This document shows, in pieces, positions 2,524 to 45,374 of a DNA stretch of 64,000 nt. Location of the stretch: NCBI RefSeq assembly GCF_900108065.1, contig NZ_FNVQ01000006.1, positions 124,001 to 188,000 of the forward strand. Reading direction: 5' to 3'. Position 1 is the stretch's first letter. Each line of letters opens with the position of its first letter. Source of the DNA: Marinobacterium lutimaris (GTDB lineage: Bacteria; Pseudomonadota; Gammaproteobacteria; Pseudomonadales; Balneatricaceae). The translations under genes and the position numbers were made by a program. The notes under the pieces were generated by a model, which saw only the letters and a program-made list of their open reading frames with translations, did not search any database and had not been told where the DNA came from.

Positions 2524-3640
2524 TCGCCGCAAACTGCTGCAGCTGTTAGCCGGCGCGCCGCTGCTGGCTGCCCTGCCGACCCCTGCCTTTGCCACCAGCA
2601 GCACCGGTGATCAACTGCTGATCGCCAGCGCTGCCGATGATGCCCAGGGCAACCACTGGCTGATCGCCATGAATGAGATGGGTGAAGAGAGGCTGCGTCA
2701 TCCGCTGCCGGATCGCGCCCACCACGTAGCGGCACACCCAAACCGCCCACTGTTGGCCGTGGTGGCGCGCCGCCCCGGCTACTATATCGACCTGGTCGCT
2801 TCCGACACCGGTGAACTGGTTCGCCGGATCGAGCCACAAGAGGGGCGTCACTTTTACGGTCACGCGATCTTCACCCCGGATGGTCAGGGCCTTCTCGCTA
2901 CCGAAATGGACGTGGCCAGCGGCCAGGGCCGGGTAACCCTCAGGTCACTCGACCAGGCCGGCGCCCCGTCAAAGGATATGAGTAGTGGCGGTATCGGCCC
3001 CCATGAGCTGCTGCTGGCGCCGGATCAGCGTACTCTCATCGTCGCCAACGGCGGCATTCTTACCGACGGCCGCGACAAGCTGAATATTGAGACCATGCAG
3101 CCGTCGCTGGCCTATATCGATCTGGAGTCGGGGGAGATCACGGAACAGCGTTTCCTGGCGGAGCAGGACCATCAGCTCAGCATCCGGCATATGGACGTAA
3201 ACGCCCTGGGCGAGGTGATTATCGCGTTGCAGTACCAGGGCGACCTGGACGATGACAAGGCGCTGGTTGCGCTGCACCGTCGCGGACAGCAGATCAAACT
3301 GCTGCGTGCGCCCGATGCGGTCAACCGGGAGATGACCCAGTACTGCGGCAGCGCCCGCTTCGACAATAGCGGCCGCATCGCCGCCGTCAGTGCTCCACGT
3401 GGCAATCTGATCACCTTCTGGGATATGGAAACGGACAGTTTTCTGACCAGTATGCGTGCTACCGATGGCTGCGGGTTAGCGGCCACTTCGGAAGACGCCA
3501 GCTTTATCGCCAGCACCGGACGTGGCAACTGCTACGCGCTCTACCCGCTGGAGGATTATCGCGAGGCGATGATGCTGCCACCTGGACTGAGCAGCCTCGC
3601 CTGGGACAACCATATGGCGATCAAGGCGCTGACCAGTTAA
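2513..3640 (+). CDS. DUF1513 beta-propeller protein with Tat-like signal
   Basis: Protein of 375 residues resembling DUF1513 (YncE/WD40-like seven-bladed propeller) proteins. The N-terminus has a twin-arginine-like motif (TNRRKLLQLL) followed by a hydrophobic stretch ending PAFA, so export by Tat is likely. Start chosen at ATG 2513; a GTG at 2510 is possible and longer extensions would have no signal peptide. Start overlaps the end of the imelysin-family gene (stop 2521-2523). Repeated blade-like segments (HPNRPLLAVV, FTPDGQGLLA, APDQRTLIVA) support the propeller fold. It is the last gene of the putative iron operon and converges with the Lon-type protease gene. Ligand unknown. Confidence 0.82.
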   Translation: METNRRKLLQLLAGAPLLAALPTPAFATSSTGDQLLIASAADDAQGNHWLIAMNEMGEERLRHPLPDRAHHVAAHPNRPLLAVVARRPGYYIDLVASDTGELVRRIEPQEGRHFYGHAIFTPDGQGLLATEMDVASGQGRVTLRSLDQAGAPSKDMSSGGIGPHELLLAPDQRTLIVANGGILTDGRDKLNIETMQPSLAYIDLESGEITEQRFLAEQDHQLSIRHMDVNALGEVIIALQYQGDLDDDKALVALHRRGQQIKLLRAPDAVNREMTQYCGSARFDNSGRIAAVSAPRGNLITFWDMETDSFLTSMRATDGCGLAATSEDASFIASTGRGNCYALYPLEDYREAMMLPPGLSSLAWDNHMAIKALTS

Positions 3641-3711
3641 CTCAACTCTTAACTGAGCTGCTAACCGGTCAGCCCGGGTTTAAGCCTGGTTCAAAACAGC
3701 CAGGGCGAAGG

Positions 3712-6081
3712 TCAGGCCTTCGCCTTGGCGATCTCTCTCAAACGTTTGACGATCTCCGCCCCCATACTGCGCTGGGTAAACTGACCATCCGCTTTCACCC
3801 GTCCCGCCGGTCTGCCGGTGAGGATCTCCAGGCACTCATCCACGGTCGCTACCGAATAGACGTGGAACTCGCCATCCTTCACCGCCTGCACCACCTCGCT
3901 TTTCAGCATCAGGTTGCGCACGTTGGCTTTGGGAATGATCACTCCCTGTTTTCCGGTCAGGCCACGGGTTTTGCAGAGTCGGAAGTAACCCTCGATCTTC
4001 TCGTTTACGCCGCCGATCGCCTGCACCTCGCCATACTGGTTGATAGAACCGGTAAGGGCGTACTGCTGACGAATCGGGATATGGGTCAACGCCGAGATCA
4101 GCGTGCAGATCTCCGCCAGTGAGGCGCTGTCACCATCGATATAGCCGTAGGACTGTTCCATCGCGATGCTGGCGGACAGGGTGAGCGGGAAGTCCCGTGC
4201 GTATTTATGGCCCAGGTAACCCTGCAGAATCAGCACCCCCTTGGAGTGGATCGGCTGCCCGAGAGTCACTTCGCGCTCGATATCGACAATACCGCGGTTG
4301 CCCGGGTTAACGGTGGCGGTGATACGCGCCGGCGTACCGAAGGAGACATCGCCCACCTGCAACACGGTCAGGCCGTTGGATTTACCCACCGCCTCGCCAT
4401 CGGTATCGATCAGCACGGTTTCATTCATGATGCCGTCGAGGATCTTCTGCGCCAGGCGTCCGGTGCGTCGTTCCTTGGAGGCAAGGGCATGTTCCACGTG
4501 GAGCGATCCTATCAGATCGTCGCCTTTCTCCTTGCGGCGGTAATCTGCCTCGCAGAGCAGGTCCACCAGTTCACCGATATGCGCCGACAGCAGTTCCTGA
4601 TCTTCCGCCAACCTTGAGCTGTGCTCCACCAGCCGCGCCACGCCCTCCCGGGTCAGGTGCGCCAGGCGCTCCTCGCTGGCCAGGGTTTTCATCAAACGGG
4701 CATATTGACGAATTGATTTTGGATTACGAGCCACGTCCTCGTCGAAGTCCACGACGACACGGAACATCTTCTCAAAGTCGTGATCCAGCTCCTGCAGCAG
4801 GTAGTAGGTATCGCGACCGCCGATCAGCACGATCTTAACACCCAGCGGCACCGGCTCAGGGTTCAGTGTGATGGTGTTCACGCCGGTGTATTCGCTGACC
4901 GGGTTTTCGATACGGATCTCGTGGGACTTGAGCGCCCGCTTCAGTGCGCCATAAACGAACGGCTGCTCCAGCAGCTTCTCCGCCTCAATCACCAGGTAAC
5001 CACCGTTGGCGCGGTGCAGGGCACCGGGGCGGATCAACTGGTAGTTGGTCACCATGGCACCCATTTCACTGGTGTATTCGATACGGCCAAACAGGTTGTC
5101 GTAGCTCGGGTGTGCTTCGAACACCACCGGCGCGCCCTTGGTCTTCTCGTTGTCGACCAGCAGGTTGACGCCGTAGTTCTCTTCCAGCCAGGCACGGCGC
5201 GTGGCATCGGTGCGCAGTTCCACCGGGCTTTCCGCCACCAGCTCGGCGCCGTTCTTGATCAGATCCTTCTCCACATGCACCAGGTACTCGGGCACACCGG
5301 AAAGGTTGGTGTAATGCTCCTTAAGCGCCTGGATCGGGCCGGAAACGGCCTGGCGTGAGGTATCGTGCTCAAGCTCACGAATCTGTTCCGCCACCTCACG
5401 GCGCCATTTCGGCAGCTCCGTCAGGTTGTCATTCAGCAGATCTTCCAGCTCGGAGATGTTGCGCTGAAACGCTTCGCGCTCCTCCTCCGGCAGGGCGGAG
5501 AACTGCGCCTCATCCATCGCCTGGCCGTTGGCCACCGGCGTGAAACCGACCTGGCCCGCCTCACGGTAGACGGCGATGCTGTATTCCCGGCCCTGGCGCT
5601 CCACCTGTTCCACGGCGGTGTCATAGCGGCGGTTAAAATCGCGCTCGATGCGGCTTTTCAGACGCTGGTAGGCCGGGCTTTCGAAAGCGGCGGGCAGTTC
5701 ACTGAGAATATTGTCGAACAGCCGGTCCATATCACGACGAAAACGAGCCGCCTTACCAGCGGGCAGTTTCAGAATCGTCGGGTAGCGGTTGTCGCTGAGA
5801 TTATTGAGATAGCACCAGTCCTGTGGCTTGCGCTGCTTCTTCGCCACATTGCGAAGGCTGACGGTGGCAAAGGAGAAACGACCGGTGTGCGGGTTGCCCA
5901 TCACGAAGAGGTTATAGCCTGGGCGCTGCATACCCACACCGAACTCCATCGCCTCAATGGCGCGCTCCTGACCGAAGAAACCGCTGAAAGGCTCCAGCGT
6001 TTCAGTGGTCTTGAACGGCAGAAGATCGGTGTCGCAGGTACGGTAAAGAGCCTCGGGCGAAAGCGGAGAGTGCTTGTCCAT
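3712..6081 (-). CDS. Lon-like ATP-dependent protease (LonB/YcbZ family)
   Basis: AAA+ serine protease of 789 residues. The N-terminal half carries a nucleotide-binding fold; the Walker A region reads G62-NPHT-G67-R68, with arginine in place of the usual lysine, which I recall as common in this YcbZ/LonP branch. The C-terminal domain is a Lon protease domain with the Ser652-Lys695 dyad in GDSAS and GGVNEKI; the 43-residue spacing equals that of E. coli Lon Ser679/Lys722. Likely a cytoplasmic quality-control protease; substrates are unknown. It is the last gene of a minus-strand set (tsaC, hemF, aroE), 75 bp after aroE. Its 3' end sits in an 8-bp inverted repeat at 3704-3724. Confidence 0.93.
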   Translation of the reverse strand: MDKHSPLSPEALYRTCDTDLLPFKTTETLEPFSGFFGQERAIEAMEFGVGMQRPGYNLFVMGNPHTGRFSFATVSLRNVAKKQRKPQDWCYLNNLSDNRYPTILKLPAGKAARFRRDMDRLFDNILSELPAAFESPAYQRLKSRIERDFNRRYDTAVEQVERQGREYSIAVYREAGQVGFTPVANGQAMDEAQFSALPEEEREAFQRNISELEDLLNDNLTELPKWRREVAEQIRELEHDTSRQAVSGPIQALKEHYTNLSGVPEYLVHVEKDLIKNGAELVAESPVELRTDATRRAWLEENYGVNLLVDNEKTKGAPVVFEAHPSYDNLFGRIEYTSEMGAMVTNYQLIRPGALHRANGGYLVIEAEKLLEQPFVYGALKRALKSHEIRIENPVSEYTGVNTITLNPEPVPLGVKIVLIGGRDTYYLLQELDHDFEKMFRVVVDFDEDVARNPKSIRQYARLMKTLASEERLAHLTREGVARLVEHSSRLAEDQELLSAHIGELVDLLCEADYRRKEKGDDLIGSLHVEHALASKERRTGRLAQKILDGIMNETVLIDTDGEAVGKSNGLTVLQVGDVSFGTPARITATVNPGNRGIVDIEREVTLGQPIHSKGVLILQGYLGHKYARDFPLTLSASIAMEQSYGYIDGDSASLAEICTLISALTHIPIRQQYALTGSINQYGEVQAIGGVNEKIEGYFRLCKTRGLTGKQGVIIPKANVRNLMLKSEVVQAVKDGEFHVYSVATVDECLEILTGRPAGRVKADGQFTQRSMGAEIVKRLREIAKAKA
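4490..4505. other. degenerate parS-like 16-mer inside the Lon-type protease gene
   Basis: TGTTCCACGTGGAGCG matches the symmetrical parS variant TGTTCCACGTGGAACA at 14 of 16 positions. It lies in coding sequence (His-Val-Glu-His codons), about 20 kb from the main parS cluster. It may be chance; ParB sites inside genes do occur. Confidence 0.3.
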
Positions 6082-6155
6082 AGGGCGACCCCTGAGCAGA
6101 GAGTTTCACCCCGTTATACCGCCCAAGACTTTGATTATGCAAGGGTCTTAGCTGG

Positions 6156-6983
6156 TCAATTAGCACTCAATTGTCGCCGAATGACCTCGATCACCTCTGC
6201 GGTCTGCGGCTTCACGCCGCGCCAGATACGGAAGGATTCCGCCGCCTGCTCCACCAGCATACCCAGACCATCCATCACTTTGCCGGAGCCCGCGGCCGCT
6301 GACCAGGCGCAGAACGGCGTCTGTTTGGCGCCGTACATCATGTCGTAGCAGGTGGTGCGTCGCGCCACCACATCCACAGGGATCGGCGGCAGATCGCCCT
6401 GCAGGCTGGCGGAGGTGCCGTTAAGCACCAGGTCAAAGGGCGCCGGGTCGATCTCTTTGAAACCGCAGCCGGAAACCACGCCCAGATCACCGAACGCCTG
6501 CGCCAGCTCATGGGCCTTGGATGCAGTGCGGTTAGCGATGACGATCTGCGCGGCGCCCGCCGAGAGGAACGGCTCAAGCACACCGCGCACCGCACCGCCA
6601 GCACCGAGAATCAGGACGCGGGCACCCTGCAACCGTGTGCGGTGATTTTCCAGGTCACAGACCAGGCCGATGCCGTCGGTGTTGTCGCCGCAGAGCTGCC
6701 CCTGCTCGTTCATGTAAAGCGTGTTCACGGCTCCTGCGCGTTCCGCGGCCGGTGAGCGCCACTGCGCCATAGTCCAGGCGCGCTGTTTAAACGGCACGGT
6801 GATATTCAGCCCCTTGCCGCCTTCGCGAAAAAACGCTTCGACGCTGGCCTCGAACTGATCTTCATCGATGCATTGAGCGCTGTATTCCACCGCTTCGCCG
6901 GTCTGCACGGCAAAAGCGGCGTGAATCTGCGGTGACTTGCTGTGGTTGATCGGATTACCGAATACCGCGTAGCGATCGCTCAT
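6156..6983 (-). CDS. aroE: shikimate dehydrogenase (NADP+)
   Basis: Shikimate dehydrogenase, 275 residues, reducing 3-dehydroshikimate to shikimate with NADPH in the aromatic amino acid pathway. Substrate-site motifs are NHSKSP near the N-terminus and NITVPFK; the nucleotide-binding glycine loop is GAGGAVRGV, followed by NRT, typical of NADP-dependent AroE. Start chosen at ATG 6983 because GGAGG sits 7 bases upstream; the in-frame ATG at 6989 overlaps the hemF stop but leaves almost no spacing to that ribosome site. It follows hemF directly on the minus strand, the same order as in Pseudomonas. Confidence 0.96.
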   Translation of the reverse strand: MSDRYAVFGNPINHSKSPQIHAAFAVQTGEAVEYSAQCIDEDQFEASVEAFFREGGKGLNITVPFKQRAWTMAQWRSPAAERAGAVNTLYMNEQGQLCGDNTDGIGLVCDLENHRTRLQGARVLILGAGGAVRGVLEPFLSAGAAQIVIANRTASKAHELAQAFGDLGVVSGCGFKEIDPAPFDLVLNGTSASLQGDLPPIPVDVVARRTTCYDMMYGAKQTPFCAWSAAAGSGKVMDGLGMLVEQAAESFRIWRGVKPQTAEVIEVIRRQLSAN

Positions 6984-6985
6984 AC

Positions 6986-7924
<939 letters not shown>

Positions 7925-8482
7925 TTACGATCTAACCACTTTATTATCAGATATATCTCTGATTGTTGTGGGCTTGGTTTGTGATCCCAGCGCGCCATCA
8001 ACTATGTAATCAACATCAGAACCGAAGTAAGTCCTTACTTTCAGTTTTGATTTCGCTGGAGGCGCCGCACTAACATTGGCCGACGTGGAAACGATGGGGC
8101 CACCGTAGGCACGGCAAAGTGCCTGTACTACCGGGTGTGCGCTGACCCGAACGGCAACACCGGAATGGTTGCCCTTGATCCAGCGAGGGATCAGTTGCGT
8201 AGGATCGGGAAGCAACCAGGTATTCGGACCTGGCCAGGTGCTGCTCAGCAACTCCCGCTGCTCGTCATTCAACGGCGCCAGCAGGCCACTGACCTGGAAC
8301 TCGCTGGCCGCAGCCAGAATCAAACCTTTATGCTCGGGCCTGCGCTTTATTTCGAGAAGACGCGCCACAGCGTCTGGATTAAAAGGATCGCACCCCAGCC
8401 CCCAGACAGCTTCTGTCGGGTAGGCGATGATACCCCCCTGGCGCAGAACCCTGACGGCTTGATCTATATGCCAGTCGTTCAC
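7925..8482 (-). CDS. tsaC: L-threonylcarbamoyladenylate synthase (YrdC/RimN family)
   Basis: TsaC makes threonylcarbamoyl-AMP from threonine, bicarbonate and ATP, the first step of the t6A37 modification of ANN-decoding tRNAs. The YrdC core is present: GGIIAYPTEAVWGLGCDP near the N-terminus, the KRRPEHKGLI motif, and a later STSAN signature. I place the start at GTG 8482 (185 residues), where alignment to the family begins; the frame is open to ATG 8545 but the extra 21 residues look non-coding. A weak GGAAA lies 8 bases before the GTG. First gene of the minus-strand set tsaC-hemF-aroE and divergent from opgG. Confidence 0.92.
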   Translation of the reverse strand: MNDWHIDQAVRVLRQGGIIAYPTEAVWGLGCDPFNPDAVARLLEIKRRPEHKGLILAAASEFQVSGLLAPLNDEQRELLSSTWPGPNTWLLPDPTQLIPRWIKGNHSGVAVRVSAHPVVQALCRAYGGPIVSTSANVSAAPPAKSKLKVRTYFGSDVDYIVDGALGSQTKPTTIRDISDNKVVRS

Positions 8483-24552: not shown

Positions 24553-24579
24553 AAAGGCCCCGAAAGGGGCCTTTTTTTT
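24553..24579 (+). terminator. intrinsic terminator of glyQS
   Basis: AAAGGCCCC-GAAA-GGGGCC followed by a T-run. The tetraloop hairpin lies 21 bp after the glyS stop. The last T is also the first base of a parS palindrome. Confidence 0.9.
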
Positions 24580-24594
24580 GTTCCACGTGGAACA
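24579..24594. other. parS: parS site 1 (ParB binding)
   Basis: TGTTCCACGTGGAACA, a perfect 16-bp palindrome. It matches the consensus TGTTTCACGTGAAACA except for the symmetrical T-to-C and A-to-G pair. Confidence 0.85.
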
Positions 24595-24655: not shown

Positions 24656-24671
24656 CGTTTCACGTGAAACA
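24656..24671. other. parS: parS site 2 (ParB binding)
   Basis: CGTTTCACGTGAAACA, 15 of 16 matches to the parS consensus, with the full GTTTCACGTGAAAC core. It lies 61 bp after site 1. Confidence 0.9.
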
Positions 24672-26514: not shown

Positions 26515-26530
26515 TGTTCCACGTGAAACC
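26515..26530. other. parS: parS site 3 (ParB binding)
   Basis: TGTTCCACGTGAAACC, 14 of 16 matches to TGTTTCACGTGAAACA with the central CACGTG intact. Confidence 0.8.
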
Positions 26531-26760: not shown

Positions 26761-26776
26761 TGTTCCACGTGAAACA
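26761..26776. other. parS: parS site 4 (ParB binding)
   Basis: TGTTCCACGTGAAACA, 15 of 16 matches to the consensus. It lies 119 bp upstream of the sigma-54-like element and also fits the NifA spacing TGT-N10-ACA; parS is the likelier identity given the three sister sites. Confidence 0.88.
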
Positions 26777-26894: not shown

Positions 26895-26910
26895 TGGTAC
26901 CCGTTTTGCA
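26895..26910 (+). promoter_or_regulatory. sigma-54-like (-24/-12) promoter
   Basis: TGGTACCCGTTTTGCA has the invariant GG and GC dinucleotides 10 bases apart, as in the sigma-54 consensus TGGCACG-N4-TTGCA, with two or three other mismatches. The predicted start is near 26920, 30 bp before the hemerythrin ATG. Inference: an RpoN-dependent activator, for example NifA or NtrC, may switch on the CO module. Confidence 0.5.
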
Positions 26911-26949
26911 AAACCTTGAAGTTGACCACCAACGGAAGAGGACAGGGCA

Positions 26950-27354
26950 ATGTTGTCAGCCGCCGAAATGCTTTCCCAGTTTGAAAACTGCTACCAACTG
27001 GGTGACGCCAGCATGGACAAAACACACCAGGAATCCCTGCGCCACTGCCACGAGACAGCAGCCTCCAGCGGCCCTCAATTTGCTATCGCATTTCAAAGAC
27101 TGTTGGATCACACGCAAGCGCACTTTGATGAGGAGGAGCAGAGAATGCTGGCGACGCGACACGGTTCGTACAAGGAGCACCGTGCAGACCATCAACGCAT
27201 CCTCGGAGATATGACGCGTTTCAACGAACGAGTGCAAGCAGGGCGCGGAATGATGGCCAAGGCCTGGCTGACTGACAGCCTCCTGGCCTGGTTCGACATC
27301 CATGCCAAAACGATGGACAGTGCGCTTGCGTCCGATCTGAAGGCGGATGCTTGA
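26950..27354 (+). CDS. bacteriohemerythrin-like diiron protein
   Basis: Hemerythrin-domain protein of 134 residues, a four-helix bundle that binds a diiron centre and small gases such as O2 or NO. All seven usual iron ligands can be placed: H26 (DKTHQE), H58 and E62 (AHFDEEE), H77 and H81 (EHRADH), H118 and D123 (IHAKTMD). It stands alone, without transmembrane or signalling domains, so it is cytosolic. Start ATG 26950; ATG 26968 is an alternative. Its stop overlaps the start of the CooA-like gene by one base (TGATG), so the two are cotranslated. Role in CO, NO or O2 handling for nitrogenase protection is inferred from the neighbours. Confidence 0.85.
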   Translation: MLSAAEMLSQFENCYQLGDASMDKTHQESLRHCHETAASSGPQFAIAFQRLLDHTQAHFDEEEQRMLATRHGSYKEHRADHQRILGDMTRFNERVQAGRGMMAKAWLTDSLLAWFDIHAKTMDSALASDLKADA

Positions 27355-27962
27355 TGAATACCTGGACCGGAAATCTGCAGCAGGGAAGGCGGGATCGCTT
27401 CGATACAGGCGCTCTCATCAGCGCACCGCACAACACGAACAATCGTGTATTTGTCATCGAACAGGGGCGTGCCCGAGTCTGCCTTGTTGGCGGAGCAAAG
27501 GAGCAGACCCTGCGTTACCTTAAGGTTGGCAGTCTGTTTGTCACTCACACGCCGACCTGGATTGAAGCGGTCGAGCCATCAACGATCCTGAGCTGGCCCA
27601 TGAGTGAGCTGCGTGACCTGATTATCCGCCAGCCTGATATGGCCATTGTCGCCCTACGCGAGATCGGCGGCATCGTCAGCACCTGCCTCGAGGTGATCGA
27701 AGACCTGGCGTTTCGGTCCGTGGAGAGTCGGCTAGCTCGCTATCTACTCACCAAGCATCGAGAGTCCGGCGCTGTACCTTTTACCCTGTGCGACAGCACC
27801 GAACGCCTGGCAACGTTGCTGGGTACCTCACGTCAAACCCTTTCCACCATCATCAACCGTATGGAGCGGGAGAACCTGATTCAACGAACCGGCCGACGCA
27901 GTTACCAGGTTCTCGATAGCGAGACGCTGACACTGACCACAGACGACCTGTCAGCTGGCTGA
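27354..27962 (+). CDS. CooA-like CO-sensing Crp/Fnr-family regulator
   Basis: Crp/Fnr-fold activator of 202 residues. From memory it aligns with Rhodospirillum CooA along its length: NRVFVIEQGRARVCLVG, then the haem loop LFVTHTPTWIEA, where H65 matches the CooA ferrous-haem ligand His77 and V63 replaces the ferric ligand Cys75; a dimerisation C-helix at 107-132; and recognition helix GTSRQTLSTIINRM (157-170), with SRQT as in CooA. It is shorter at the N-terminus, so the opposite ligand (Pro2 in CooA) cannot be assigned. Start ATG 27354, coupled to the hemerythrin gene; a TTG one codon earlier is dismissed. CooA activates CO genes on CO binding. A different Crp/Fnr haem sensor remains possible. 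Confidence 0.75.
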   Translation: MNTWTGNLQQGRRDRFDTGALISAPHNTNNRVFVIEQGRARVCLVGGAKEQTLRYLKVGSLFVTHTPTWIEAVEPSTILSWPMSELRDLIIRQPDMAIVALREIGGIVSTCLEVIEDLAFRSVESRLARYLLTKHRESGAVPFTLCDSTERLATLLGTSRQTLSTIINRMERENLIQRTGRRSYQVLDSETLTLTTDDLSAG

Positions 27963-27965
27963 CAG
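27948..27965. promoter_or_regulatory. CooA/Crp-type operator upstream of cowN
   Basis: CTGTCAGCTGGCTGACAG is a perfect 18-bp palindrome with TGTCA-N6-TGACA spacing, the half-site pattern of CooA operators (TGTCR/YGACA). It spans the stop codon of the CooA-like gene. Centred at 27956.5, it would lie at -41.5 (class II) for a transcript starting at about 27998; a CATAAG -10-like hexamer lies at 27984-27989. Confidence 0.6.
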
Positions 27966-27993
27966 ACAGCCGGATGATGGCGACATAAGCTGA

Positions 27994-28021
27994 CCTCCTG
28001 ACCAATCATCAGGAAAGGAGG
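27994..28021 (+). promoter_or_regulatory. cowN: possible ribosome-site hairpin before cowN
   Basis: CCTCCT (27994-27999) can pair with the strong AGGAGG ribosome site (28016-28021), while the alternative stem TCCTGA/TCAGGA (27996-28001 with 28009-28014, 7-base loop) leaves it free. The two folds are mutually exclusive. Whether this regulates translation is speculation. Confidence 0.3.
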
Positions 28022-28029
28022 GCAAGAAT

Positions 28030-28320
28030 ATGAATGATCTTTCGGTCAAAAAAGACAGGTATGTGAGCTTCTGCGGACTGGACTGTGACCAGCGTGCCAC
28101 CGATTTTATGCTGCGTATAAATCAGCACCTGGAGACTAAAAATGGCGCAACACCCTGGATCGATTACTTCACCCACAAGCTGAACGAGAAAGCCAAGATG
28201 GGCGTGGATGATCTGTTCTTTATCGGTGCGCAGATGAACACGCTGAACGAATACCTGGAGCAGATCGAAGATGAAGAGGGGCTCGAGTTACTTTGGTACC
28301 TGGAGCAGGAATGCTGCTGA
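28030..28320 (+). CDS. cowN: CowN, protects nitrogenase from carbon monoxide
   Basis: Small cytosolic protein of 96 residues that I recognise as CowN: DRYVSFCGLDCDQRA near the N-terminus, the DDLFFIGAQMNTLNEYLE segment, and a C-terminal acidic tail ending LEQECC. CowN allows N2-dependent growth in the presence of CO; in Rhodospirillum it is under CO-sensor control. A very strong AAAGGAGGG ribosome site (28014-28022) precedes the ATG. It lies directly behind a CooA-like regulator and its probable operator. No nif genes are in the window, so nitrogen fixation by the host is predicted, not shown. Confidence 0.88.
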   Translation: MNDLSVKKDRYVSFCGLDCDQRATDFMLRINQHLETKNGATPWIDYFTHKLNEKAKMGVDDLFFIGAQMNTLNEYLEQIEDEEGLELLWYLEQECC

Positions 28321-28364: not shown

Positions 28365-28916
28365 CTAAAGAGCTGCATCCCACAACAGGCGTCCCGCCTG
28401 TTTAGCGTTACTCACAAGAGCCTCGCTGCAGCCCTGAACCTGACTCGTAACGATAAGACCTTCCCCCAGCAGGAAAAGCGCGTCAGCCACAGGAGCGGGC
28501 TCTCTGGCGCCTGCAGCACTACATAAACCCAGCAGCAGCGCCTTGATCTCCTCCTTGTGCTGATCCGCCAGCCGGTGCGGAACCTGCTCCCTGGCGGCAA
28601 ATTCCGCTGCGGCGTTGATAAACGCGCAACCGCAGAACTCAGTCTCAGCCACCCAGTCCCCGATAAAATCGAGGTAGGCCAGCGGCCTTGCCTCAGCCTC
28701 TACAGCCAGCACATGCTGTTTAACCCTGCCGATAAACTGCTCATGCCGCAGTAGAAGTGCCGACTCAATCAGGTCGTCTTTACTGGGAAAATATTTGTAA
28801 AGAGTGCGCTTGGTTACGCCCGCTTCCGCGCTCAACAGATCAACCCCTGAGGCGTGAAAGCCGTTTCGATAAAACAGCGCAAGCGCAGCTGTAACTATTC
28901 TGTTTGCGGTCGGCAT
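28365..28916 (-). CDS. TetR-family transcriptional regulator
   Basis: TetR/AcrR-type repressor of 183 residues. The N-terminal helix-turn-helix is complete (residues about 4-50): ALALFYRNGFHASGVDLL, then AGVTKRTLYKYFPSKDDL. The C-terminal ligand domain contains an FCGCAFINAAAEF segment, typical of the YcdC/AefR-like group. Divergently transcribed from an HPP-family membrane protein gene; a palindrome in the 99-bp gap (28955-28972) is the probable operator, so autoregulation and control of the neighbour are likely. Ligand unknown. Confidence 0.9.
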   Translation of the reverse strand: MPTANRIVTAALALFYRNGFHASGVDLLSAEAGVTKRTLYKYFPSKDDLIESALLLRHEQFIGRVKQHVLAVEAEARPLAYLDFIGDWVAETEFCGCAFINAAAEFAAREQVPHRLADQHKEEIKALLLGLCSAAGAREPAPVADALFLLGEGLIVTSQVQGCSEALVSNAKQAGRLLWDAAL

Positions 28917-28954
28917 TGTTGCTCTCTCTGGAATATACCGTTCTGTTTACCTTT

Positions 28955-28972
28955 GTACACCGATCGGTATAC
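28955..28972. promoter_or_regulatory. probable TetR operator palindrome
   Basis: GTACACCGATCGGTATAC, an 18-bp near-perfect palindrome (one mismatched pair) centred on CGATCG, in the divergent gap. A related half-site ATACCG is at 28935-28940. TetR family dimers bind such sites. Confidence 0.55.
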
Positions 28973-29015
28973 TTACGCAACAAATCAGCAGCAATTAGAA
29001 GGCAGGAGCCTCAGT

Positions 29016-29516
29016 ATGCGTTTCCCCTCAGTGTTAAAGTCCGGCGCGCCGGCCGCTCCCTCTCTCAGGTTTATCTTCCTATCGTCCCTGGGCGCTGGCC
29101 TGGCGATCGCAATGACCGGCTGGCTCAGTGTCGTATCGGGAACCCCCTGGCTGATGGCGCCCTTTGGTGCCAGCTGCGTACTGGCCTTTGGCGTACCGGA
29201 CTCACCGCTGGCCCAGCCGCGCGCCATTATCGGTGGCCATCTGATCGCAACACTGATCGGGATTATTACCGCACAACTGCTTGGTGATTCGTGGATCGGC
29301 ATGGCACTGGCCGTAGCCCTGGCGCTGGCAGCGATGCAAATTACCCGTACCGTGCATGCGCCTGCCGGCGCCGACCCCATCGTAGTGATCATGGCGCATG
29401 CGCCATTCAGCTATCTGGTGTCACCTGTCCTGGCCGGATCCCTGGTTATCGTGGCATTCGCCTGGGCGATCAACCATCTGCAACGGCCTGGAACCTATCC
29501 TCGCTACTGGCTGTAA
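29016..29516 (+). CDS. HPP-family integral membrane protein
   Basis: Small inner-membrane protein of 166 residues with four to five hydrophobic helices. It matches the HPP family by the APFGASCVLAFGVPDSPLAQPRAI region and GGHLIAT; the namesake HPP motif reads HAPAGADP here. Plant HPP proteins have been linked to nitrite transport; bacterial members are uncharacterised. Start chosen at ATG 29016, with GGAG 7 bases before it; a longer open frame upstream runs through the divergent promoter region and is not coding. Probably controlled by the adjacent TetR-type repressor. Confidence 0.82.
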   Translation: MRFPSVLKSGAPAAPSLRFIFLSSLGAGLAIAMTGWLSVVSGTPWLMAPFGASCVLAFGVPDSPLAQPRAIIGGHLIATLIGIITAQLLGDSWIGMALAVALALAAMQITRTVHAPAGADPIVVIMAHAPFSYLVSPVLAGSLVIVAFAWAINHLQRPGTYPRYWL

Positions 29517-44567: not shown

Positions 44568-45374
44568 GTGGCGAAAATCCTCACGATCACCAACCAGAAA
44601 GGCGGTGTCGGCAAGACGACGACTGCGGTAAACCTGGCCGCGTCACTGGCGGCCACCCGCAAACGCGTGCTGATGATCGATCTCGATCCCCAGGGCAATG
44701 CGACCATGGGCAGCGGAGCCGACAAGCATCAGCTGGAAACCTCGGTTTACGAGTTGCTGACCGATCAGGCCAGCGCCGAAGAGGCGATCCTCAGTGATCT
44801 GTCGGTGAAATACGACCTGATCGGCGCCAATGGGGATCTGACCGCGGCCGAGGTGGAGCTGCTGCAGCTGCCGCGCCGCGAATTTCGCCTGAAAATGGCG
44901 CTGCTGCCAGTGATGGATCGTTACGATTTTATTCTTATCGATAACCCGCCGTCGCTGAACCTGCTGACGGTGAACGCCCTGTCGGCCTCCCATGGCGTGA
45001 TCATTCCGATGCAGTGCGAGTATTACGCGCTGGAGGGGATCAGCGCCCTGGTCGGCACCATCGACAAGATCAACCAGCGTCTCAATCCCAAGCTGAAGAT
45101 CGAGGGCATACTGCGCACCATGTTCGACCCGCGCATGAGCCTGACCAAGGATGTTTCCGATCACCTGGTCGAGTACTTTGGCGACAAGGTCTACCGTACC
45201 GTGATTCCTCGTAACGTGCGCCTGGCAGAAGCGCCCAGCCACGGTATGCCGGCGTTGCAGTACGACAAGAATTCACGCGGAGCCCTGGCTTACCTGGCAC
45301 TGGCCGGTGAGCTGATCCGCCGTACCGAGCAGGAGCTGGCCAGCGAAGACCTGGCCACTGAACAGGAAGACTGA
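44568..45374 (+). CDS. parA: chromosome partitioning ATPase ParA (Soj)
   Basis: ParA, 268 residues, deviant Walker A ATPase (K11-GGVGKTTT) that moves ParB-parS complexes away from the cell centre after replication. The Walker A' DLDPQGNATMGSG segment and DFILIDNPPSLNLLTVNAL Walker B are clear. Start is GTG 44568, two bases after the rsmG stop. Forms an operon with parB; the parS sites are 18-20 kb away across oriC. Confidence 0.97.
   Translation: MAKILTITNQKGGVGKTTTAVNLAASLAATRKRVLMIDLDPQGNATMGSGADKHQLETSVYELLTDQASAEEAILSDLSVKYDLIGANGDLTAAEVELLQLPRREFRLKMALLPVMDRYDFILIDNPPSLNLLTVNALSASHGVIIPMQCEYYALEGISALVGTIDKINQRLNPKLKIEGILRTMFDPRMSLTKDVSDHLVEYFGDKVYRTVIPRNVRLAEAPSHGMPALQYDKNSRGALAYLALAGELIRRTEQELASEDLATEQED

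Follow-up and report, generated by a model that had tools for sequence, protein, structure and literature searches.

A hemerythrin gene joined to cooA and cowN in Marinobacterium: a probable two-input operon for nitrogenase protection

Introduction

The closest described system to the locus reported here is the algH-cooA-cowN cluster of Gluconacetobacter diazotrophicus, in which cooA is likewise clustered with cowN, and a CooA-type site that overlaps a NifA site lies 60 bp upstream of cowN (PMC8047169). The available part of that paper reports induction of cowN under nitrogen-fixing conditions, with additional induction by CO; it also cites Hoffmann 2014 for the control of R. capsulatus cowN by CooA. 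The adjacency of cooA and cowN, and a likely control by CooA, are already known. A 2026 survey (PMC12903952, in the excerpt available) also counts cooA and cowN among the nitrogenase protection genes.

By what means aerobic diazotrophs keep several gases at once from harming nitrogenase is an old question, and the operon described here offers a compact test case in named strains of Marinobacterium. It lies in a stretch of 64,000 nucleotides of Marinobacterium lutimaris (contig NZ_FNVQ01000006.1, positions 124,001 to 188,000), referred to below as the window. G. diazotrophicus has algH where the window has a hemerythrin gene, and the window's operator spans the 3' end of cooA. A first-pass annotation of this DNA had singled out the translational coupling of a hemerythrin to a CooA-type sensor as an arrangement not known to have been described. 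As regards this coupling that seems to be so (in open-licence full text we recognised no paper that joins a hemerythrin to CooA and CowN, subscription papers being outside the scope); the adjacency of cooA and cowN had already been published, as the consulted part of PMC8047169 makes clear. New here are the nif-type hemerythrin subfamily, the sigma54 motif, the operator/-10 geometry, and a CooA clade with Val in place of Cys75. We consider it probable that the locus is a two-input operon protecting nitrogenase from gases.

Results

Organization of the locus and its host genome

The trio consists of three plus-strand open reading frames between glyS and gyrB (ORF calls in the window; Table 1). 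The TGATG coupling of the first two genes, as initially described, is exact, with the hemerythrin TGA (27352-27354) overlapping the regulator ATG (27354-27356). The hemerythrin start is at 26950 rather than 26895, which is where a sigma54-type -24/-12 motif begins.

Table 1. Features of the hemerythrin-cooA-cowN locus, in window positions
Feature	Position	Strand	Remarks
parS-type ParB site TGTTCCACGTGAAACA	26761..26776	.	also fits NifA TGT-N10-ACA; begins 134 bp ahead of the sigma54 motif
sigma54-type -24/-12 motif TGGTACCCGTTTTGC	26895..26909	+	likely operon promoter; 5/5 Marinobacterium
Hemerythrin	26950..27354	+	134 aa; bacteriohemerythrin of the nif-cluster subfamily
CooA-clade Crp/Fnr regulator	27354..27962	+	202 aa from ATG; H65 as haem His; Val63 at the Cys75 position; short N-terminus
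CooA-type operator TGTCAGCTGGCTGACA	27949..27964	.	contains the cooA stop codon; also fits NifA site TGT-N10-ACA
-10-like element TAAGCT, putative cowN promoter	27986..27991	+	21 bp after the operator, class II spacing
Possible hairpin, CCTCCT pairing with the AGGAGG ribosome site of cowN	27994..28021	+	weak; 3/4 Marinobacterium
cowN, N2-fixation sustaining protein	28030..28320	+	96 aa

The host genome (5.57 Mb in 21 contigs) carries nitrogenase genes. Profile searches gave nifH at 476 bits (cut-off 394) and nifA at 702 bits (cut-off 529), with nifD (872 bits), nifK (907) and nifN (587) near nifH and all above cut-off, so that the nifHDK and nifA genes to be looked for on the first-pass proposal were all found. 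They are not neighbours of the trio: nifHDK is on contig C18 and the trio's hemerythrin on contig C15, and within the window the nifH model gave one weak match (30 bits, near 44595), in line, as far as nifH goes, with the earlier remark that no nif gene is nearby. The cooS search that had also been proposed found no CooS-type CO dehydrogenase in this genome, which fits CO protection rather than CO metabolism.

The identification of CowN held. The protein scored 113 bits with the curated equivalog model NF033689 (cut-off 48), a wide margin, and 116 bits with PF20543 (cut-off 27). The nitrogenase genes are present in the same genome, and CowN would relieve CO inhibition of nitrogenase in this host.

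Conservation of the trio in Marinobacterium and beyond

The gene-neighbourhood survey found the trio intact in 4/8 Marinobacterium genomes (G000, G001, G003 and G007), always between glyS and gyrB; its place was confirmed in M. mangrovicola. This conservation of order and place indicates that the arrangement is not a chance one. The regulator relatives of M. mangrovicola, a Marinobacterium MAG and M. litorale are 93, 59 and 57% identical to the window's. The hemerythrin and cooA genes overlap in three of the four trio genomes and are separated by 3 bp in the fourth.

The remaining genomes showed other states. G005 has kept the hemerythrin, in the same place, and the sigma54-type motif, while its cooA is reduced to a scar and its cowN is broken by an in-frame stop; the cooA-cowN part can thus be lost while nif and the hemerythrin remain. 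G002 and G006 have other, unrelated genes beside gyrB (in fetched stretches without glyS) and gave no cowN match, and in G004 (assembly 87% complete) the contig stops near gyrB. nifH was above cut-off in 7/8 genomes of the genus, including all four with the intact trio, G004 being the exception. Of the seven nifH-positive genomes, G002 and G006 are thus without a cowN match and G005 carries a broken copy, so the module is dispensable, which counts against the two-input operon. nifA was above cut-off in all 13 genomes tried, all of them of the genus or cowN-bearing.

Three wider searches (12/116, 4/369 and 5/398 genomes, the window's genome in each) gave 19 cowN-bearing genomes. A member of the CooA clade was a neighbour of cowN in six and a nif-type hemerythrin in five, all five in Marinobacterium; the window proteins were the queries for these counts, and more distant kinds may escape them. 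A search of 398 genomes of the phylum found the regulator clade in two, the window's genome and G511 (362 and 328 bits, the next match being 62), and in both the regulator adjoins cowN. The cooA-cowN pairs of G419, G511 and Rhodobacter sp. CZR27 have no neighbouring hemerythrin; G419 has a hemerythrin of the subfamily about 72 kb away. A scan of 84,980 named genomes returned three loci, all in Marinobacterium, with peptide patterns taken from a narrow alignment, so that absence elsewhere is not to be read from it. In a plasmid collection, the hemerythrin gave no match at 1e-5 and CowN matched one record, that of Rhodobacter sp. CZR27; the regulator matched 37 records including CZR27, the other 36 being without a CowN match.

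A sigma54-type motif precedes the hemerythrin in Marinobacterium

The motif TGGYAY-N5-TTGC was present upstream of the hemerythrin in 5/5 Marinobacterium genomes, G005 included, the start codon lying 55, 54, 80, 144 and 64 bp beyond the beginning of the motif. In seven Marinobacterium stretches (271,228 strand-bases) there were six such motifs. Five of them are those upstream of the hemerythrin; the sixth is in M. litorale, within cooA and on its minus strand. The motif is the sole match in the window, yet at least one occurred in 42/100 shuffles. As the pattern was picked on the window, the test lies in the four remaining genomes, among them the closely related G003. Outside the genus, the strict motif was found upstream of the hemerythrin or sir2-like starts, on the right strand, in 0/11 loci (four had a motif on the other strand, and one motif was at the gene start itself), which argues against NifA/sigma54 control by this motif as a general feature of the subfamily.

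The window has four parS-type sites within one mismatch, against none in 100 shuffles. One of these is the sole TGT-N10-ACA upstream of the window's sigma54 motif, and it fits because parS happens to match that pattern; a dedicated NifA site was not found there. Use of the parS-type site by NifA would be a matter of conjecture.

The hemerythrin belongs to a nif-linked subfamily

The hemerythrin identity was borne out by PF01814 (32.8 bits, cut-off 25.3) and TIGR02481 (56 bits, cut-off 51.75). The narrower models NF002522 (76 bits, cut-off 162) and NF033749 (51 bits, cut-off 84) were below their cut-offs. Seven residues, five His, one Glu and one Asp, make up the hemerythrin diiron ligand set, and on alignment to 4xpw these correspond to H26, H58, E62, H77, H81, H118 and D123, invariant in 7/7 aligned members. 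The predicted model is a helical bundle (pLDDT 93.9). Hemerythrins ranked first against it (TM 0.74-0.79 for the top 8, with weak E-values of 0.01-0.03), the nearest by rank and TM-score being 4xpw/4xpy and DcrH.

A class-wide profile search matched 124/369 genomes. Beyond the window's own, nine matches scored at least 129 bits and the next 109; the profile (A2) already contained two nif-linked members. Five of the nine loci (G220, G181, G319, G485 and G274) have nifH and nifD in the fetched stretch. The G261 locus has nifB (653 bits, above cut-off), draG and a sir2-like gene, and G298, on a short contig, has the sir2-like gene and adjoining small genes. The G419 and G438 stretches showed no nif/dra linkage (the G438 contig being 5.6 kb). 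Two genomes of the window's family, G057 and G069, have the homologue by nifU, nifS and FeMo-cofactor genes. Linkage to a nif or draG cluster was therefore seen in 9/11 examined close relatives outside Marinobacterium, in G298 through the sir2-like gene alone, where the eleven are the nine top class-wide matches plus G057 and G069 and the weaker matches of the family search stay outside the count. With equal flanks of 1.5 kb, linkage was seen in 6/9 top matches as against 0/20 lower-scoring loci (L126-L145, among 30 returned, with many more weak matches existing). In our loci, draG and the sir2-like gene flank the hemerythrin beside nifHDK. The names nifB, nifS and draG in these loci were confirmed by model matches, as were nifD, nifK and nifN. 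The gene beside draG we take to be draT from its position, two such proteins having matched no families.

In a tree of 36 rows, the Marinobacterium hemerythrins were nested in a clade of 17 rows (98/96) that also holds the nine nif-linked members, G419, G438 and one long-branch row. The window's genome gave a single hemerythrin match, physically apart from the nif/dra genes (C15 and C18), and there the sir2-like gene still stands beside nifH without a hemerythrin. We infer that the hemerythrin gene moved out of the nif cluster. The protein reads as a nif accessory protein, and its placement in this subfamily appears to be new. Its ligand is most likely O2 or NO, whose level around nitrogenase it would lower. 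Methanotroph hemerythrins are described, in the available part of PMC12810054, as O2 carriers and sensors.

The first-pass annotation had proposed that CO sensing, together with a diiron gas-binding protein, shields nitrogenase. The CooA-clade regulator, CowN and the nif genes agree with this proposal; the service of the hemerythrin in the CO response is not supported. One version of that role would make the hemerythrin a working part of the CO sensor, its O2 binding keeping the haem of CooA in the reduced state and open to CO. This would explain the tight coupling of the hemerythrin and cooA genes, and a single sigma54-type motif lies upstream of both. However, cooA and cowN were absent from the fetched stretches around the nif/draG-linked relatives, G005 has retained the hemerythrin and the motif after the loss of cooA, and three cooA-cowN pairs have no adjacent hemerythrin (the one in G419 being far off). 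We regard this explanation as unlikely, and favour the two-input operon, with the hemerythrin acting on O2 or NO.

The regulator groups with CooA but differs at the haem ligands

The regulator matched HTH_Crp_2 at 50.9 bits (cut-off 27), and cNMP_binding was below cut-off (23.8, cut-off 27.5). Among solved structures, its three closest relatives are all full-length chains of CooA (E from 2e-27 to 1e-22). The top single-protein match was 2fmy (2.2e-27); the profile search also gave CooA first (4.1e-40), followed by an unnamed Crp/Fnr chain (8.4e-16) and NtcA (5.1e-13). A 48-row tree placed the seven regulators linked to cowN in one clade (100/99), which joined the CooA proteins of R. rubrum and C. 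hydrogenoformans (96/90 for the 9-row set); this join is likely rather than certain, both CooA rows being long branches. H65 aligns to the haem-ligand His77 of R. rubrum, and this His is present in 9/9 CooA rows and 0/39 other Crp/Fnr rows. The first-pass call of a CooA-like sensor is upheld by these results; its refuting case was a regulator grouping with non-haem Crp/Fnr proteins in a genome lacking nitrogenase, and what we found is a CooA grouping with the His kept, in a genome with nifH, nifD, nifK and nifA.

Two other features of classic CooA are changed. Cys75 is a ligand of the oxidised haem of R. rubrum CooA, and Pro2 or Ala2 is the N-terminal haem ligand. The Cys75 position holds Val in 7/7 members of the clade. 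In the alignment the window's regulator begins, with its residue 1, at residue 13 of R. rubrum CooA and so has nothing opposite Pro2; no in-frame ATG, GTG or TTG was found upstream beyond TTG 27351. The N-terminal ligand region is missing in five of the seven members, the window's included, all of the same length up to the His. The G419 and CZR27 regulators are 6 and 7 residues longer, that of CZR27 starting Met-Pro, and an N-terminal ligand is possible in these two. A Cys75 ligand is not universal among CooA proteins, since the haem ligands in C. hydrogenoformans are Ala2 and His82 (PMC6955866, in the part available). The AlphaFold model of the regulator was modest (pLDDT 72.4, pTM 0.45, TM about 0.4 even to the best matches); its top Foldseek matches were the CooA proteins of R. 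rubrum and C. hydrogenoformans, and given its quality we drew no conclusion from it on the haem pocket.

These changes bear on a further alternative, that the regulator senses NO, O2 or the redox state and not CO, as the Val in every clade member and the missing N-terminal region would permit. Against this, the clade is tied to cowN in 7/7 members found, with CooA-type operators; moreover, the Val is shared by the CZR27 member, and CooA is reported to control cowN in R. capsulatus (as cited in the consulted part of PMC8047169). We find this alternative improbable, and retain CO as the presumed signal of the regulator in the two-input operon.

A palindrome at the cooA stop codon has a fixed spacing to a -10-like element

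A palindrome TGTCA-N6-TGACA (TGTCG-N6-TGACA in Rhodobacter) covers the cooA stop in 7/7 cooA-cowN loci (four Marinobacterium, G511, G419 and Rhodobacter sp. CZR27), and the candidate CooA site TGTC-N8-GACA, predicted from sequence, is present in all seven. In the window alone the palindrome is weak, with at least one in 8/100 shuffles. TANNNT starts exactly 21 bp after the palindrome in 6/7 loci and 22 bp after it in the seventh; within offsets of 10-35 it recurs only once more (G419, offset 35). In class II geometry, as for CRP, an operator centred at -41.5 puts the hexamer at -12. Since the -10 and sigma54 patterns were chosen after the window had been seen, the argument rests on their recurrence. 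The palindrome at the cooA stop with its fixed -10 spacing seems to be new here.

The palindrome close to cowN fits NifA as well as CooA, an observation that goes against the two-input model. If it were a NifA site, cowN would answer to nitrogen status only, and TGTCAGCTGGCTGACA does fit TGT-N10-ACA. However, the window has no sigma54 -24/-12 motif, strict or loose, in the stretch from the palindrome to cowN, the -10-like element stands at class II spacing in six of the seven loci, and the inner TGTC/GACA bases match CooA. Control of cowN by nitrogen status only, through a NifA site at this position, is highly doubtful, and we prefer the CooA operator of the two-input model.

The hairpin over the cowN ribosome site is present in three of four Marinobacterium species and missing in the fourth. 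Read-through control, in which the upstream transcript would hide the ribosome site and a CooA-started one free it, was considered and set aside as a weak side note, the folding being inconsistent: between the two transcripts the unpaired probability of the site rose in three species (0.28 to 0.39, 0.27 to 0.44 and 0.12 to 0.49) and went from 0.68 to 0.66 in the fourth, and the cowN start codon was less open in three of the four.

That the three genes are chance neighbours sharing an origin-proximal landing site is scarcely credible, for the slot beside gyrB is indeed variable, with the unrelated genes of G002 and G006, but the four trio genomes share gene order and strand, touching genes and the recurring sigma54 motif, have CooA proteins 56-93% identical to the window's, and all carry nifH.

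Discussion

In the two-input operon that we propose, NifA and sigma54 would transcribe the hemerythrin and cooA together under nitrogen-fixing conditions. The diiron hemerythrin, of the nif-cluster type, would bind O2 (or NO) and lower its level around nitrogenase, and CooA would stand poised as a haem sensor of CO. When loaded with CO, CooA would bind the palindrome at the cooA stop, acting as a class II activator of the promoter just upstream of cowN, and CowN would then let nitrogenase work on in CO. Such a logic, with a nitrogen signal leading to hemerythrin and CooA, and CO leading to CowN, is consistent with the published induction of cowN (PMC8047169, in the part available).

A broader reading is possible, which we put forward tentatively: a multi-gas shield of nitrogenase, in which a nif hemerythrin that removes O2 or NO in gammaproteobacterial nif regulons was recruited to head the operon of a variant CooA, whose Fe(II) haem might be five-coordinate or otherwise ligated and whose response might differ from that of classic CooA. 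The variant meant here is the clade without Cys75, its Marinobacterium members also being without the N-terminal haem ligand.

The locus matters in several respects. It presents a diiron gas-binding protein tied to nitrogen fixation by its neighbourhood in other diazotrophs and by phylogeny, and within Marinobacterium the recurring sigma54 motif adds to this tie. It offers a natural candidate cooA-cowN promoter of conserved geometry that is directly testable. The CooA clade, whose members lack one or both haem-ligand features of the classic protein, also bears on how CooA singles out CO.

Among known systems, the nif regulon of Ca. Tectiglobus is drawn with a hemerythrin 'hr', given without a stated function in the available part of the paper (PMC11208148); it may be of the window's subfamily. 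Unlike nif-cluster hemerythrins, the Marinobacterium protein is encoded away from the nif cluster, as the first gene of an operon with cooA and cowN. With the CooA proteins of R. rubrum and C. hydrogenoformans, the window's regulator shares a clade, the His77/His82 position, the Gly117 position and the SRQT/TRQT recognition helix; it differs from them in the Val for Cys75, in the linkage to cowN and in a genome where no cooS was found, and their N-terminal ligand region is missing in most of the cowN-linked clade, as described above. The plasmid of Rhodobacter sp. CZR27 (NZ_CP023549) differs from the window in that no hemerythrin is annotated in the 6-kb stretch, and in the longer, Met-Pro N-terminus of its regulator. 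It has the same adjacent cooA-cowN pair, with a regulator that is 45% identical and carries the same Val-Thr-His motif, and an operator at the cooA stop with the -10 spacing of the window.

Results and Discussion

Near glyS, we observed four parS-type ParB sites at a threshold of at most one mismatch, while 0 of 100 shuffles contained any. Since the parS consensus also fits the NifA pattern TGT-N10-ACA, a parS-type chromosome-partition site could in principle also serve as a NifA enhancer of the hemerythrin-cooA-cowN operon.

Features of the window and of related stretches
Feature	Stretch	Position	Strand	Remark
parS-type ParB site	window	24579-24594		≤1 mismatch
parS-type ParB site	window	24656-24671		≤1 mismatch
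parS-type ParB site	window	26515-26530		≤1 mismatch
parS-type ParB site	window	26761-26776		≤1 mismatch
Inverted repeat	window	27994-28021		found in 3/4 Marinobacterium
TetR-family regulator	window	28365-28916	-	downstream of cowN
HPP-family membrane protein	window	28854-29516	+	downstream of cowN
cooA scar	L073 (G005)	5714-5900		N-terminal remnant alone, ahead of cowN remnant
Patatin, E2-ThiF, JAB genes	L108 (G002)	3599-8166		adjoining gyrB
sir2-like gene	L001 (window's genome)	2733-3602		adjoining nifH

The inverted repeat could mask the cowN ribosome site within long transcripts. The TetR-family and HPP-family genes are both found downstream of cowN in M. mangrovicola as well. In Marinobacterium genome G005, where cooA is reduced to a scar, a CooA-type operator was looked for in stretch L073 and was not found.

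We also examined the companions of the nif-type hemerythrins. A sir2-like gene recurs adjoining them (loci L117, L119, L120, L122, L123 and L125), accompanied in 5/6 of these loci by a cysteine-containing small protein of ~75 aa, whose L122 copy gave no Pfam match. The sir2-like assignment to PF13289 was tested on the L001 copy.

The slot beside gyrB seems to be a receiver of variable cargo. In Marinobacterium genome G002, the patatin, E2-ThiF and JAB genes located there resemble components of the defence systems known as type II CBASS.
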